Shown: in pieces, positions 2,167 to 63,119 of the stretch | Layout of the letters: each line of letters starts with the position of its first letter | Position numbering within the stretch: position 1 is the first letter of the stretch | From: Thalassobius sp. I31.1 | GTDB taxonomy: Bacteria; Pseudomonadota; Alphaproteobacteria; Rhodobacterales; Rhodobacteraceae | DNA length: 64,000 nucleotides | Direction of reading: 5' to 3' | Assembly: GCF_003031585.1 (NCBI RefSeq) | Contig: NZ_PWAA01000053.1 | Location: 62,001-126,000, forward strand | The notes under the pieces: model-generated | What the model was told of the DNA's origin: nothing | What the model saw: only the letters and a program-made list of their open reading frames with translations | Database searches by the model: none | Position numbers and translations under genes: made by a program

Positions 2167-3141
2167 ATGAATAAGACTTCAGGCCAAATCAGCGCAGATG
2201 CGCAGCTTTATCCCACAAGCGAGCCGTTTGACCGGCAGATGCTGGATGTGGGTGACGGGCATCAGATTTATGTAGAGCAATGCGGGCGGCGTGATGGCGT
2301 GCCGGTGATTGTTGTGCATGGCGGGCCCGGCGGCGGTTGCAGCCCGATGATGCGGCGGTTTTTTGATCCTGAGGTTTACCGTGTGATCCTGTTTGATCAG
2401 CGCGGCTGCGGGAGGTCGCGTCCTTTCGCGTCTGTAAAGAATAACACCACCTGGGATCTGGTGGCCGATATGGAAAAGATCCGGAATTCCCTTGGAATAG
2501 ACACCTGGGGCGTGTTTGGCGGTAGCTGGGGCGCGACGCTGTCGCTGGTCTATGCACAGACGCATCCGGAACATGTGTCAAAACTGTTCCTGCGTGGTGT
2601 GTTCCTTGCGCGGAAAGCTGAACTTGACTGGTTTTATGGTGGTGGGGCCGGGCAGTTCTGGCCTGAACAGTGGGATCGTTTTACCTCACTTGTACCGGTG
2701 GATGAACGCGGCGATTTGATCGGGGCCTATCACAAGCGCCTGTTTGGCGAAGATGGTGCGGCGCAGCGGCGGTTTGCTGTCAGCTGGGCGGTCTGGGAAA
2801 ATGCCCTGGCCTCTATGGGCAATAATGGCGCGATGGTGGATGTGCCCCAGAACTACGCCCTGGCTTTCGCCCGGCTGGAATGTCACTATTTCATCAATGG
2901 GGCTTTCCTTGAGGAAGGGCAGCTGTTGCAGGATCTGCATAAGATCGCCCATATACCGGCGGTGATTGTTCAGGGGCGGTATGATATGATCTGTCCGCCG
3001 ACATCCGCCTGGGCGCTGGCGCAGTCCTGGCCGAATGCCACATTGCAGATGGTGCCTGCTGCCGGTCACGCCCTGTCAGAACCCGGTATCATCCGGGCCC
3101 TTGTTCAGGCGACAAATGACTGGGCACAGGAGAAGGTATAA
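2167..3141 (+). CDS. pip: Proline iminopeptidase (peptidase family S33)
   Basis: A 324-residue alpha/beta hydrolase that removes N-terminal proline from peptides. The oxyanion-hole motif HGGPGGG, the DQRGCGRS motif and the nucleophile elbow GGSWGATL (Ser120) are the specific marks of the S33 iminopeptidase family; the catalytic His is in the C-terminal GHALSEPG segment. I start at MNKTSGQ (2167) because the 29 codons upstream lie in the ubiG promoter region and show no family similarity. It is cytoplasmic, with no signal peptide. It is followed by a promoter for the rimP operon rather than by a co-transcribed gene. Confidence 0.93.
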   Translation: MNKTSGQISADAQLYPTSEPFDRQMLDVGDGHQIYVEQCGRRDGVPVIVVHGGPGGGCSPMMRRFFDPEVYRVILFDQRGCGRSRPFASVKNNTTWDLVADMEKIRNSLGIDTWGVFGGSWGATLSLVYAQTHPEHVSKLFLRGVFLARKAELDWFYGGGAGQFWPEQWDRFTSLVPVDERGDLIGAYHKRLFGEDGAAQRRFAVSWAVWENALASMGNNGAMVDVPQNYALAFARLECHYFINGAFLEEGQLLQDLHKIAHIPAVIVQGRYDMICPPTSAWALAQSWPNATLQMVPAAGHALSEPGIIRALVQATNDWAQEKV

Positions 3142-3148
3142 ACAGGGC

Positions 3149-3177
3149 TTGCAGACTCAGGAAAGTTTGCCTATATG
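3149..3177 (+). promoter_or_regulatory. Sigma70-type promoter of the rimP-nusA-infB operon
   Basis: TTGCAG (3149-3154) and TATATG (3172-3177) are separated by exactly 17 bases, giving a start near 3184 and a leader of about 95 nucleotides before rimP. The dnaK promoter in this window has the same TTGCAG-17-TATAT form. The site is predicted from sequence only. Confidence 0.5.
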
Positions 3178-3230
3178 GGGTGTAACAACGGCGCGTTGGG
3201 GTCCAAACCTGACGCCCACCGGAATAATGC

Positions 3231-3254
3231 AACGGGCCGTGTGCCCGTTTTTTT
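3231..3254 (+). terminator. Intrinsic terminator-like hairpin in the rimP leader
   Basis: AACGGGC (3231-3237) pairs with GCCCGTT (3243-3249) around a five-base loop, followed by an unbroken T run to 3254. It lies downstream of the predicted rimP promoter and 25 bases before the GTG start of rimP. That position suits an attenuator within the leader as well as, or rather than, a terminator for pip. An upstream AACGG (3187-3191) could pair with CCGTT (3245-3249) and disrupt it. Confidence 0.6.
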
Positions 3255-3279
3255 GTGTTCTGACATCAGGGGAAAAACC

Positions 3280-3870
3280 GTGTCTGATCTTATTGCCAAA
3301 GCCGCGATTGACCGTCGCCTTCTCGAGCTGCTTCAGCCCGTGATCGAGGATATGGGATTTGAAATCGTGCGCATCCGCCTGATGAGCGGTAATGTTTCAA
3401 CGCTTCAGCTGATGGTGGAGCGCCCGGATGGGGGCATCGACGTTGATGAATGCGCCCAGATTTCCACCGCGGTGTCTGCCATTATGGATGTGGAAGACCC
3501 GATTGTGGAAAACTATTCCCTTGAGGTTTCAAGCCCTGGTATCGACCGGCCGCTGACACGCCTGAAGGACTTTGATACCTGGAACGGCTATGTCGCCAAG
3601 CTTGAAACAAGTGAGCTGATCGACGGTCGTCGCCGTTTCAAGGGCACACTTGCCGGAACGGAAAATGACGAAGTTCTGATCACACTTGATGCGAACAAAG
3701 GCGTTGAAGCTATGACCATTGGTCTGCGGTTTGAATGGCTTTCTGAAGCCAAGCTTGTGCTGACCGATGACCTGATCTCTGAAATGCTGCGCCAGCGCAA
3801 AGACGCGGGCATTGTTGACGAAGACCAATTTGATGAAATCCAGACAGAAGACGGTTCTGAGGAGGACTGA
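3280..3870 (+). CDS. rimP: Ribosome maturation factor RimP
   Basis: A 196-residue protein needed for 30S subunit maturation. It shows the two-part RimP fold: an N-terminal alpha/beta domain (about residues 10-85, with [10 protein letters not shown] and [12 protein letters not shown]) and a C-terminal SH3-like domain after the SSPGIDRPL motif. I chose the GTG at 3280 because AGGGGAA stands six bases upstream; a longer ATG-initiated frame would run through the terminator hairpin. It is the first gene of the rimP-nusA-ylxR-infB operon and ends three bases before nusA. Confidence 0.93.
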
Positions 3871-3872
3871 AT

Positions 3873-5489
3873 ATGGCGATTACCAGTGCAAACCAGCTGG
3901 AGCTGCTCCAAACTGCTGAGGCCGTAGCCCGCGAAAAGATGATCGACCCGGGTCTGGTTATCGAAGCGATGGAAGAAAGCCTGGCACGTGCGGCGAAATC
4001 CCGTTACGGCAGCGAAATGGATATTCGCGTATCCATCGACCGCAAGACCGGTAAGGCGACATTCACCCGCGTCCGGACTGTTGTTGAAGATGATCTGCTG
4101 GAAAACTATCAGGCTGAACTGACCGTTGAGCAGGCAAAACAGTATACGACTGATCCTGCGGTTGGTGATGAACTGACCGATGAAGTTCCGCCAGTCGAAA
4201 TGGGCCGTATCGCGGCACAATCCGCGAAACAGGTTATCCTGCAGAAGGTACGCGAAGCTGAACGTGATCGTCAGTTCGAAGAATTCCAGGACCGTGCCGG
4301 CACCATTATCAATGGTCTGGTGAAACGCGAAGAATACGGCAATGTGATTGTTGACGTAGGCCGCGGCGAAGCAATCCTGCGCCGCAACGAGAAAATCGGC
4401 CGCGAAAGCTATCGCCCGAATGATCGTGTGCGCTGCTACATCAAAGATGTGCGTCGCGAACAGCGTGGCCCGCAGATCTTCCTGTCCCGTACGGACCCGC
4501 AATTCATGGCGGAACTGTTCAAAATGGAAGTTCCTGAAATCTATGACGGCATCATCGAAATCAAAGCTGTGTCCCGTGATCCGGGTTCCCGTGCAAAGAT
4601 CGCTGTGATTTCCAACGACGGTTCTATCGATCCTGTCGGTGCCTGTGTTGGTATGCGCGGTTCCCGTGTGCAGGCCGTTGTGAACGAGCTGCAGGGCGAG
4701 AAAATCGACATCATTCCATGGAACGATGATCAGCCAACCTTCCTTGTGAACGCGCTGCAGCCTGCAGAAGTGACCAAGGTTGTTCTGGACGAAGAAGCAG
4801 AGCGCATCACTGTTGTTGTGCCTGACGAACAGCTGTCTCTGGCAATTGGTCGTCGTGGTCAGAACGTGCGTCTGGCAAGCCAGCTGACCGGTCTTGATAT
4901 CGACATCATGACTGAAGCTGAAGAGTCTGAACGCCGTCAGGCTGAATTCGCAACCCGCACCAAACTGTTCATCGACACGCTGGATCTGGATGAATTCTTT
5001 GCTCAGCTGTTGGTTTCTGAAGGGTTCACCAACCTTGAAGAAGTTGCATATGTCGAAGTTGACGAACTGCTGGTGATTGACGGTGTTGACGAAGGCACTG
5101 CGGGTGAACTTCAGACGCGTGCGCGTGAATTCCTGGATGCACAGAACGCGAAAGCCGTTGAAAAGGCACGTGAGCTGGGTGTTGAAGACAGCCTGTTCGC
5201 CTTTGAAGGTCTGACACCACAAATGATCGAAGCGCTTGCGGAAGATGGTGTGAAGACACTGGAAGATTTCGCAACCTGTGCCGACTGGGAACTGGCCGGT
5301 GGCTGGACTGTTGTCGATGGTCAGCGCGTGAAAGACGATGGTGTGCTTGAGAAATTCGATGTTTCTCTGGAAGAAGCGCAGGATCTTGTGATGACCGCGC
5401 GTATTCAGCTGGGCTGGGTGGATCCGGCGGATCTGGAAGCGGAAGCTGAAGAAGGCGACGCTGAACTTTCCGAGGAGGCTGAGGCCTGA
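3873..5489 (+). CDS. nusA: Transcription termination/antitermination factor NusA
   Basis: A 538-residue RNA-polymerase-binding factor controlling pausing, termination and antitermination. Visible domains are the N-terminal polymerase-binding domain (1-130), an S1 domain (about 136-200), tandem KH domains (about 230-345, with VGACVGMRGSRVQAVVNEL and IGRRGQNVRLASQL) and C-terminal helix-hairpin-helix acidic repeats (about 360-520). The extended acidic C-terminus is usual in alphaproteobacteria. The codons are biased (gaa, ctg, gtt), as expected for a strongly expressed gene. In E. coli NusA regulates its own operon, which makes the upstream leader hairpin noteworthy. Confidence 0.96.
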   Translation: MAITSANQLELLQTAEAVAREKMIDPGLVIEAMEESLARAAKSRYGSEMDIRVSIDRKTGKATFTRVRTVVEDDLLENYQAELTVEQAKQYTTDPAVGDELTDEVPPVEMGRIAAQSAKQVILQKVREAERDRQFEEFQDRAGTIINGLVKREEYGNVIVDVGRGEAILRRNEKIGRESYRPNDRVRCYIKDVRREQRGPQIFLSRTDPQFMAELFKMEVPEIYDGIIEIKAVSRDPGSRAKIAVISNDGSIDPVGACVGMRGSRVQAVVNELQGEKIDIIPWNDDQPTFLVNALQPAEVTKVVLDEEAERITVVVPDEQLSLAIGRRGQNVRLASQLTGLDIDIMTEAEESERRQAEFATRTKLFIDTLDLDEFFAQLLVSEGFTNLEEVAYVEVDELLVIDGVDEGTAGELQTRAREFLDAQNAKAVEKARELGVEDSLFAFEGLTPQMIEALAEDGVKTLEDFATCADWELAGGWTVVDGQRVKDDGVLEKFDVSLEEAQDLVMTARIQLGWVDPADLEAEAEEGDAELSEEAEA

Positions 5490-59459: not shown

Positions 59460-60287
59460 ATGTCTAATGCCCAGCTTGAAACCGCCATCGAGGCCGCGTG
59501 GGACGCACGCGATACCATCAGTTCTGCCACCACTGGTGAAATGCGCGATGCGATCGAAGACACGCTGAACGCGCTCGACAGTGGCAAACTACGCGTTGCC
59601 GAACCACGTGAAGACAGCAATTGGCATGTGAACCAATGGGCGAAGAAAGCTGTTCTTCTGGGCTTCCGTATCAAAGATATGGAACAGCACGAGGGTGGCC
59701 CGCAGGGCGCTGGCTGGTGGGATAAAGTCGACAGCAAGTTTAAGGGCTGGGGCGATGCGGAGTGGAAAGAAGCCGGTTTCCGTGCTGTTCCAAACTGTGT
59801 TGTGCGCAAATCTGCTTTTGTTGCCCCTGGCGCGGTTCTGATGCCGTCTTTCGTGAACATCGGCGCATACGTTGGCGAAGGCACGATGGTTGACACCTGG
59901 GCGACTGTTGGCTCCTGCGCGCAGATCGGCAAAAACGTGCACCTGTCCGGTGGCGTTGGCATTGGCGGCGTTCTGGAACCCATGCAGGCTGGCCCGACCA
60001 TCATTGAAGATAACTGCTTCATCGGTGCGCGTTCCGAAGTTGTCGAAGGCTGCATCGTACGCGAAGGGTCCGTTCTGGGCATGGGCGTGTTTATCGGTCA
60101 GTCTACTAAGATTGTGGATCGTGAAACCGGCGAAGTCATGTATGGCGAAGTGCCATCCGGTTCCGTGGTTGTTGCGGGTTCCATGCCCAGCAAAAACGGC
60201 GTGAACCTGTATTGCGCGGTGATCGTGAAGCGTGTGGATGCACAGACCCGTTCCAAGACGTCTATCAACGATCTGCTGCGCGACTGA
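59460..60287 (+). CDS. dapD: Tetrahydrodipicolinate N-succinyltransferase
   Basis: A 275-residue trimeric acyltransferase of the lysine/diaminopimelate succinylase branch. The C-terminal part is a left-handed beta helix with isoleucine-patch hexapeptides ([60 protein letters not shown]). ATG 59460 follows GGGAGCC. It is separated from the other dap gene, dapE (61968), by a receptor gene on the opposite strand and a small conserved gene. A terminator follows. Confidence 0.95.
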
Positions 60288-60347: not shown

Positions 60348-61451
60348 TCAGCGTACGCCAAACCATTTCGTGTAAATGGCGTCATACCGCCCGTTTTCCC
60401 GGATGGTCAGCAGGGCGCGGTTGACAGATTCACGCAGCGGGCTGTTCTGACTAAGGGCGATGCCGTAATTTTCCGGATGAAAGACCCGGTCCAGCAGGCG
60501 CACTTTGCCGGGGGGCTGATTTCGTACATACCAGGACAGCATGGGCTGATCGAAGAAGATGGCGTCAAATTCACGGTTTTCAAACCCGGTGATAAGAGTG
60601 GTGTAGTCTTTCGTTGTGAAATGCTGGATTTCACGCGTGGTCAGAAAATCGGATGCTGTTGAACCTTCGGTGGTTGCAACGCGGTGTTCTTCGATATCAG
60701 ACAGTGAGTTGATCTCTTCTGTGATTGCGCCAAGCGTAATCGCAGCAGTAATCTTCGCGACAAACACCGATACGATGAACAGGGACGAAATCACAAGAAT
60801 GACGGAAAACACACGCCCTGGCCGGGATTGCGGCACCCGTTCTTCAAAGCCGCCGTTTACAACCAGGTTCAGAGCCCACCAGAACGACGGAAAGAAAGCC
60901 TCTGCCATGGGGCGATCAAAATAAGGCTGACTTTTACGTTCAAAATACCACATGACCAGGCCGCCAAGCGCCAGCAGGCCGAACGCGGCAAGTATTGCGA
61001 ATAGAATATCAAGATTGAAGATCGCCTCAAAAACAGGGCTGCCGGGGTTATCATCATGCAGCATAACCTGAAGGCCCGAAGCGATAATGGGCTGTGAGAA
61101 ATCCAGGATCTGTTCGCGGGATGACGTGATCGAGATATTGGCAACGGCCCCGTCCGCCGCGCCGCTTTGAACGGCTTCGAACATTTCACTGAAGCTGCCA
61201 TAGGGGTGAAACTCAACGCGCAATTTCATCTCAGTTGCGATTTCACGCATCAGATCTATTGAAAAGCCTGCAGGTTCTGTCCCTGTATGCATAGCAAAGG
61301 GTGGACGCTCCACCGTGGCGAAGCGCAATGTTCCGTCAGAACTGATCTGACTGTCCGGGTTCTGAGCCTGAGCAGGAAAGTTTACACATAACAAAAAAAT
61401 CAGAACCAGTTTCCGGATCAGGAAGGACAAGGTTGAGGATTGTTGCCTCAT
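60348..61451 (-). CDS. Ionotropic glutamate receptor-like protein (binding domain with inserted channel)
   Basis: A 367-residue exported membrane protein. A signal peptide (to about residue 29) precedes a substrate-binding domain split in two: lobe 1 (about 40-140, TLRFATVERPPFAMHTGTEP, GFSIDLMREIATEM) and lobe 2 (about 250-367). Between them lie a helix (148-169), a re-entrant pore-like segment (186-204, FFPSFWWALNLVVNGGFEER) and a second helix (213-240, ending with FVAKITAAITLGAI). This order, binding lobe, M1, P-loop, M3, binding lobe, is that of GluR0-type prokaryotic receptors. The filter lacks TVGYGD; NGGFE occupies its place. Ligand and ion selectivity are unknown. Confidence 0.82.
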   Translation of the reverse strand: MRQQSSTLSFLIRKLVLIFLLCVNFPAQAQNPDSQISSDGTLRFATVERPPFAMHTGTEPAGFSIDLMREIATEMKLRVEFHPYGSFSEMFEAVQSGAADGAVANISITSSREQILDFSQPIIASGLQVMLHDDNPGSPVFEAIFNLDILFAILAAFGLLALGGLVMWYFERKSQPYFDRPMAEAFFPSFWWALNLVVNGGFEERVPQSRPGRVFSVILVISSLFIVSVFVAKITAAITLGAITEEINSLSDIEEHRVATTEGSTASDFLTTREIQHFTTKDYTTLITGFENREFDAIFFDQPMLSWYVRNQPPGKVRLLDRVFHPENYGIALSQNSPLRESVNRALLTIRENGRYDAIYTKWFGVR

Positions 61452-61596
61452 TGTGTTCTATCCTGCGAAAATGGTGAGGTTACTAAAAGTTCTGAAACGC
61501 AGGAATGTAAAGGAAAGATTGACCTGAGACTGGATATTTTTGCCGAAACCAGGCATAGCGAATGTGACATTCCCAGCATCGCAGAAAGGGCAGGCG

Positions 61597-61947
61597 ATGA
61601 GCGCTAAAGAGAAAAAAGAAAAGAAGCCGCAGCAAGTCTATACGCTGTTGGTCGAAGTTGGCCGCAAAGACGGTGACGGTCTGCCCGATGGCGCGGATGG
61701 CGCGGCATTGATGTGTTATGCCTCTGGCGTGGACGAAGCCGAAGCCGTACGCGAAACCGTGGCGATCCTGAAGCAGGCGGATATGGCGCCGCTGGATGTG
61801 ACGGGATACGGCACGCTGGATGAACGGATTGAACAAGGCCATGAGATTGGCGAAGACGAACGCGAACTGATGCAGCGTGCTCTGGATGAAAATTCCGTCA
61901 TTGTCGCCCAGATGACCCCATTCTTTGACGGCAAGCCCGCGCATTAA
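61597..61947 (+). CDS. Small conserved protein of unknown function upstream of dapE
   Basis: A 116-residue cytoplasmic protein beginning with a Lys-rich stretch ([20 protein letters not shown]). The rest is charged with no transmembrane segment: [55 protein letters not shown]. It has no motif that I recognise. A gene of this kind is seen between dapD and dapE in several Rhodobacteraceae. ATG 61597 is preceded by AAGGGCAGG. It lies 20 bases ahead of dapE, so it is probably co-transcribed. Confidence 0.75.
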
Positions 61948-61967: not shown

Positions 61968-63119
61968 ATGGCCCATACCCCGATTGACCCCGTTGAACTG
62001 ACTGGCGACCTGATCAAATGCCCCTCTGTTACGCCTGTGGAAGGCGGTGCGCTGGTGCTGCTGGAAGATATGCTGTCAGCGGCGGGCTTTGAATGTACGC
62101 GCATTGATGTCGAAGGCACCTGCAACCTCTTCGCTCGCTGGGGTGCAAAGGGTGCAAACCGGTCTTTCGGCTTTAACGGCCACACCGATGTTGTGCCCGT
62201 GGGTGATGCAGACGCCTGGAGCTTCGATCCCTTCAGCGGTGAAGTTGTCGATGGCATTATGCAGGGGCGTGGCGCGACAGATATGAAATCCGGCGTGGCG
62301 GCCTTTGTCGCGGCAGCGATTGATCTGGTGCAGGACACACCGCCCGACGGTGCAGTGGTGATCACCATCACCGGCGATGAAGAAGGCCCGGCGCTGCATG
62401 GCACCACGGAAATCCTGAAATGGATGGGCGCGCAGGGTGAAGTCATGACTGATTGTCTTGTCGGCGAACCCACCTGCCCGGATAAAATGGGCGAGATGAT
62501 CAAGATCGGTCGTCGCGGATCGCTGAAGGCGCATTTTACCGCGCGGGGTAAGCAGGGCCATTCCGCCTATCCGCATCGCGCCCTGAACCCGCTGCCGGCC
62601 ATGGCGCGTCTGGTGGATCGCCTGTCGTCCCATCAGATTGACGCGGGCAGTGATCATTTTGATCCGACAACGCTGGTCGTTACCGCGATTGAAACCGGGA
62701 ATGACGCCAGCAACGTGATCCCCGCACAATGCCGTTGCGCGATTGATATTCGCTTTTCCGATGTGCAGACCTCCGCGCTGATCATTGCCTGGCTTGAACG
62801 CGAGAAAGCAGTGATCGAGGCAGAGACAGGCGTTGAGCTGGAACTGAAGACTAAAGTCACCGGCGAATCTTTTATAACGCCCCCTGGTGCGCTGTCTGAT
62901 CTGGTCGCGAAATCCGTGAAGGATGAAACCGGCGTTGATCCGGTGCTGTCCACCTCGGGCGGCACGTCGGACGCACGTTTTGTGCGTGCCCATTGTCCTG
63001 TTGTCGAATTTGGTCTTGTGGGCAAAACCATGCACCAGGTGGATGAACGGGTGGAAGCCGAACAGATCACCCAGCTGAAGGGCATTTATTCCCGTATTCT
63101 GAAGGATTATTTCGCATGA
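61968..63119 (+). CDS. dapE: Succinyl-diaminopimelate desuccinylase
   Basis: A 383-residue M20 metallohydrolase that removes succinate from N-succinyl-LL-diaminopimelate. The metal-site motifs [35 protein letters not shown] and the C-terminal [11 protein letters not shown] are visible; a dimerisation domain occupies about 180-295. It starts at ATG 61968 after AAAGGAAATC and its TGA overlaps the next gene's ATG (63116-63119). Confidence 0.95.

Follow-up and report, generated by a model that had tools for sequence, protein, structure and literature searches.

Glutamate receptor channels of prokaryotes were surveyed in 2010 by Croset et al., who in the accessible part of their paper report 23 receptors in 971 prokaryotic genomes (PMC2924276), and by Ger et al., who listed 22 prokaryotic channels, assigning 12 to Group 1 for their K+ filter and 10, whose P regions were not recognised, to Group 2, which they describe as nearer to eukaryotic receptors (PMC2950845). 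Group 1 includes GluR0 of Synechocystis (slr1257), which, according to the accessible portion of Zhang et al. 2026, has a lobe-pore-lobe architecture and a K+ pore, is active as a K+ channel, and sits in the membrane the opposite way round to K+ channels (PMC13099474). GluR0 is also treated as a bacterial model in the available excerpts of two other papers (PMC6385376, PMC12226733). In the literature that we found, this K+ channel is the prokaryotic receptor with channel data and the model of the ancestor. Some of the Group 2 accessions in the 2010 list we take to be those of roseobacters.

Here, we describe a Group 2-like gene in a window of 64,000 nucleotides, the whole stretch of DNA that was analysed, from Thalassobius sp. 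I31.1. Its product shares with Group 2 the S1-M1-P-M2-S2 topology, the lack of a recognised K+ filter, the conserved Arg and Asp, and the absence of an ABC domain. Since prokaryotic receptors without a K+ filter have been in print as Group 2 since 2010 (PMC2950845), the kind itself is already known, and the original prediction went too far in calling the pore loop unusual. What is new is the size of the subfamily, its near-fixed loop, and its location at a dap locus. While the 10 members of Group 2 are identical in 2 of 120 columns of the channel region, the sequences studied here form one subfamily with a near-fixed NGGFEE. The main text of Ger et al. 2010 describes neither such a loop nor a dap linkage, and its Data S4 alignment may show such a loop. 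Among the matches listed in our literature search, mainly titles and the beginnings of abstracts, none names a Rhodobacterales filter or the dap linkage; since subscription papers lay mostly outside the search, this is weak evidence of absence.

Domain architecture and predicted structure

The whole gene occupies positions 60348..61451 on the minus strand, exactly as predicted, and encodes an iGluR-type channel subunit of 367 aa with an ATG start, as identified from the open reading frame, Pfam, and sequence matches. All of its parts are read from the minus strand. Residues 1-30 (61362..61451) resemble a signal peptide, judged by eye from a basic start, a hydrophobic core (hydropathy 1.98 at residues 7-25), and AQAQ at residues 27-30. 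The two ligand-binding lobes, placed by Pfam and by sequence and structure matches, are lobe 1 (S1, residues 40-133, 61053..61334), which includes R112, and lobe 2 (S2, residues 249-366, 60354..60707), which includes S264, T265, and D301. Between them lie the M1 helix (residues 147-171, 60939..61013), drawn from the AlphaFold2 model and hydropathy; the pore helix or P-helix (residues 182-198, 60858..60908), which ends in FWWALNLVV and is drawn from the model and conservation; and the M3 helix (residues 210-243, 60723..60824), which is taken from the model and lines up with the GluA2 helix that contains SYTANLAAF. At the filter position, where TVGYGDxxP would be expected, alignments and conservation place NGGFEERVP (residues 199-207, 60831..60857), confirming that the K+ signature has been lost; in the model, the loop between the P-helix and M3 comprises residues 199-209. 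Calculated in windows of 19 residues, hydropathy peaks at 2.61 (residues 149-167) and 2.81 (residues 214-232) and reaches at most 0.87 in those starting at residues 173-200. These two peaks with a weak middle segment fit a pair of membrane helices and a single re-entrant loop.

The three Pfam families named in the original prediction all score above their curated cut-offs: SBP_bac_3 (E 5e-30, split across residues 44-365), Lig_chan (PF00060; E 5e-11, residues 159-258), and Lig_chan-Glu_bd (PF10613; E 3e-10, residues 41-132). The top NCBIfam model, glutamine-binding GlnH, lies far below its cut-off (121 bits versus 303). Together with the conservation in 96 orthologues, the Pfam scores put the architecture beyond chance, and Pfam, model, and hydropathy agree on the GluR0-type order of lobe 1, M1, re-entrant loop, M3, and lobe 2. 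PF00060 has one match in the genome of the window, and a 99% identical copy of the protein is present in Paenihalocynthiibacter styelae, which NCBI places in Rhodobacterales. In contrast to animal AMPA and NMDA receptors, the chain lacks the amino-terminal domain and M4 and stops after lobe 2. No soluble output domain other than the lobes is present in the 367-aa protein, so ion flow would be the obvious output.

The AlphaFold2 alignment had 16 rows, comprising four channel sequences and twelve binding proteins without a pore part. The resulting single-chain model (pLDDT 81, pTM 0.64) contains M1, pore helix, loop, and M3, and thus the re-entrant loop that had been predicted between the two helices. 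The binding lobes are modelled with high confidence and the membrane part with less (pLDDT about 51-76), the latter resting on the four channel sequences; these alone gave a poor model (pLDDT 55). Searching the PDB with Foldseek, we obtained 1889 matches, the best 50 of which all fall on chains of AMPA receptors (top E 4e-22), with 359-372 aligned columns (366 for the top match), TM-scores of 0.53-0.62 by query length, and rmsd of 8-13 Å, values which imply that the arrangement of the lobes relative to the membrane part is not fixed by the model. As modelled, then, the protein has the chain order and fold of AMPA receptors over its whole length, with the domains spread differently.

The best VIA-align match is the NpGluR0 binding core (Z 30.6, rmsd 1.4, 212 residues, 40% identity), closely followed by amino-acid-binding proteins and the GluR0 core (1ii5, Z 28.1); the VIA-align rows are taken up by the binding domain and have no bearing against the pore. 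The core of NpGluR0 from Nostoc punctiforme (2pyy), solved with L-glutamate, is also the best solved match by sequence (E 8e-42), a likeness limited to the binding domain, as 2pyy is the binding core only. Next come glutamine-binding and similar proteins and then animal and plant receptors, the matches to AMPA, NMDA, and plant GLR chains spanning lobe 1, pore, and lobe 2. Thus, the earlier description of the protein as GluR0-like holds for the architecture but is imprecise, since its closest solved relative is NpGluR0.

Homologues and phylogeny

With the window protein itself as the query, so that distant receptors are under-sampled, 160 distinct ORFs matched at E<=1e-15, and removal of 17 without a pore region left 143. 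Of these, 96 belong to the window subfamily, 19 carry T[VI]GYG as their filter, and 28 have other loops. In the order of the window, 106 of 390 surveyed genomes have a match (E<=1e-25); leaving out 18 more distant ones, 88 of them contribute orthologues, to which six further relatives and two named records were added to give the 96. Ninety of these were chosen by the NGGFEE/NGSFEE motif and six variants by hand after their neighbours were known, so the conservation and synteny counts for the 96 are not fully independent of the choice. This circularity is countered by a tree without pore columns, which keeps the subfamily as one clade, and by the dap-locus neighbours found for 89 of the 90 motif-picked sequences.

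Trees were built by a quick search from the 143 sequences thinned to 97. In this thinned set, the subfamily forms one clade (SH-aLRT 98) whether or not the pore columns are included. Changes between K+ and non-K+ filters number at least three on the tree with pore columns and at least four on the tree without; well-supported branches alone force one and three changes, respectively. Across the phylum, 77 of 398 genomes have a Lig_chan match at E<=0.001, and the family cut-off is exceeded in only 22. One family in this survey includes many smaller genomes with weak, below-cut-off Lig_chan matches in frames of mostly ~170-270 aa. A scan of viral contigs by pattern gave 59 matches, no relative among them.

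Outside the subfamily, the same architecture carries further loops, including TNASFTIFTP, FQGQGNPFEL, TKGPFNYFEF, TQADQMP, and SGKxxxRKNLFGW, in several well-supported clades. A homologue on plasmid pA of the cyanobacterium Kovacikia minuta (2848-4116 of the fetched stretch) has a shortened loop, LIGQDVTMP; a segment combining part of lobe 1 with the pore matches animal AMPA receptors at E 1e-20 (best AMPA match of the window protein, 4e-17), and NpGluR0 is matched by the binding core at E 6e-60. In one genome, an NGGFEE channel coexists with a related protein that carries a K+ filter, TVGYGD. Plasmids of Agrobacterium, Rhizobium, Roseibium, Salmonella, Photobacterium, and others encode 21 homologues below 60% identity, of which 20 cover at least 80% of the query, despite being annotated, where annotated at all, as "transporter substrate-binding domain-containing protein"; pore loops were taken from four of the 21.

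Genomic context

The channel gene lies between a dapD-like gene (59460..60287, start codon inferred), recognised by THDPS_N_2 and Hexapep in a scan from 59448, and a small gene (61540..61947) that Pfam assigns to no family at E 1e-5; beyond the small gene lies a dapE-like gene with Peptidase_M20 (61968..63119). All three neighbours are on the plus strand, opposite to the channel gene. Within the flanks examined, mostly 1.5-2 kb, at least one of dapD, dapE, and the small gene is found beside 95 of the 96 orthologues (small gene 90, dapD 57, dapE 51) and beside none of 47 other, non-subfamily homologues. When eight neighbours from the window were compared, the dap-locus genes recurred most widely beside orthologues. 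The small gene is opposite in strand to the channel gene in all 90 cases; relative to the small gene, the channel gene is downstream in 61 and upstream in 29.

The small gene is kept at the dapD-dapE locus whether or not the channel gene is there. It is present in 44 of 81 genomes, all 44 being among the 49 from the family of the window, and the channel gene is absent from the stretch examined at 19 of 30 small-gene loci, in one of which dapE, the small gene, and dapD are direct neighbours. Since the small gene occurs both with and without the channel, the locus is fixed, and the channel gene is one that may be present there or absent. The linkage to these lysine genes, dapD and dapE, may tie the channel to lysine/diaminopimelate or may merely mark a quiet insertion site.

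Conservation and identity of the pore

The exact NGGFEE loop is found in 89 of the 96 orthologues and is therefore the norm in this Rhodobacterales subfamily; the other seven loops are NGSFEE, NGGFEQ, SGGFGQ, ISSAHEEE, and three of the ISGDY type. Residue by residue, the counts are 91 for N199, 92 each for F202 and E203, 93 for E204, and 96 for P207. Scored on 64 non-redundant orthologues (below 85% identity, thinned from the 96), FWWALNLVVNGGFEER is the most conserved 16-residue stretch of the protein, with a mean commonest-residue frequency of 0.95 versus 0.65 and 0.63 for the lobes. Synonymous codons change freely within the loop (N199, AAT 47 and AAC 44; E203, GAA 50 and GAG 42), so that it is the protein that is under selection. 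With these two observations, a decayed pore was set aside as the leading idea.

Several residues of the lobes are also conserved: R112 and D301, which align with NpGluR0, are present in 96/96 orthologues, as is R49 of lobe 1, which precedes a conserved Pro-Phe. S264 and T265, each found in 95/96, presumably correspond to ligand-holding residues of known receptors. In such receptors, the amino-acid ligand is held by an Arg in S1 and an Asp in S2 (PMC2950845), to which R112 and D301 correspond.

A receptor that has retained the pore fold for assembly or for signalling through a partner, with the altered filter shut, is the foremost alternative. It draws on the departure from the K+ signature, on the few clade members whose loops have changed further (ISGDY and ISSAHEEE, for example), and on the literature searched, in which we found neither functional data nor a recording from any subfamily member. 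However, the conservation of the loop, the highest in the protein, amid varying codons, the lack of a cytoplasmic signalling domain, and the predominance of dap-locus genes among the recurring neighbours all speak against it. The original suggestion that the pore may not conduct is thus disfavoured by loop conservation, and we consider it unlikely while still granting it a place.

A second alternative is that the channel selects K+ despite its altered filter and works like GluR0. NGGFEE aligns without gaps with the TxGYGD of K+ channels, with the first Gly of the filter retained and an aromatic residue where Tyr would stand, and Ion_trans_2 matches 39 of the 41 orthologous pore pieces scanned, while Lig_chan matches all 41. 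A profile built from the pores of 41 orthologues, taken from the 90 that were motif-picked, scores GluA2 at 25.7 bits and KCNQ2 at 24.8 bits, which is practically a tie. In single-sequence searches with the pore, K+ channels come slightly ahead of GluN1 (3t4z at E 0.06 and GluN1 at E 0.08 in one search; a cyclic-nucleotide-gated K+ channel at E 0.02 and GluN1 at E 0.07 in another), none of these matches being significant. Nevertheless, Glu replaces the second filter Gly and Asn-Gly replaces Thr-Val, and the TVGYGD-type relatives lie outside the subfamily clade. We therefore regard K+ selectivity as improbable.

The same comparisons limit how closely the pore can be likened to that of animal receptors. 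In the profile alignment, N199 stands opposite the first Q of the GluA2 motif MQQG, which we take to be the Q/R site. It likewise falls, without gaps, opposite the N of LLNSG in GluN1 (construct 5uow), a pore match that is not significant alone. According to the accessible part of a review, the Q/R/N site of glutamate receptors overlaps the K+ filter (PMC3483616). By sequence score, the pore is statistically no closer to animal receptors than to K+ channels, the two being tied, and the idea that it is clearly animal-like was not upheld. Since the single-sequence matches are not significant, the ground for the term "NMDA-like" is one residue together with its neighbours.

Finally, a membrane-anchored ABC substrate-binding protein or other ordinary binding protein, suggested by the GlnH-like binding domain and by the annotation of the distant plasmid homologues, is rejected as highly improbable, because M1, P-helix, and M3 interrupt the lobes, Lig_chan exceeds its cut-off, a Pfam scan of seven neighbouring ORFs in the window revealed no ABC component, and homologues with the complete architecture carry pore loops while ABC binding proteins match the lobes only.

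Proposed function and implications

The architecture, binding-domain homology, ligand residues, conserved non-K+ filter, clade, and dap linkage are computed results, and with them we consider it probable that the protein is an amino-acid-gated, non-K+-selective cation channel, a prokaryotic iGluR without a K+ signature of the Group 2 type. For its tetrameric assembly, orientation, gating, conduction, ion preference, and ligand, we infer the following scheme. After export, an alpha-amino acid would be bound in the periplasm between the two lobes, which would act as a clamshell whose closure pulls on the M3 helices of the assumed tetramer. A central pore, whose loop would enter from the cytoplasmic side, would then open. 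Unlike the K+ pore of GluR0, this pore should not be K+-selective, since NGGFE takes the place of TVGYG. Given the asparagine at the tip of the loop and the acidic residues directly behind it, cations would most likely pass non-selectively, perhaps including divalents.

A bolder proposal is that the subfamily has an NMDA-receptor-like asparagine filter in a widespread, vertically kept Rhodobacterales channel that responds to periplasmic amino acids with a depolarising current, possibly one that carries Ca2+. This seems to us doubtful, if somewhat less so than a shut pore. If it is true, bacteria would possess, or would have evolved on their own, a glutamate-gated pore ringed by asparagine.

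A conserved subfamily with a non-K+ filter raises the direct question of whether bacterial glutamate receptor channels can have animal-like selectivity, and bears on how selectivity changed within the glutamate-receptor fold. More broadly, the bacterial homologues, with many pore loops on one architecture, offer a natural set for studies of selectivity.
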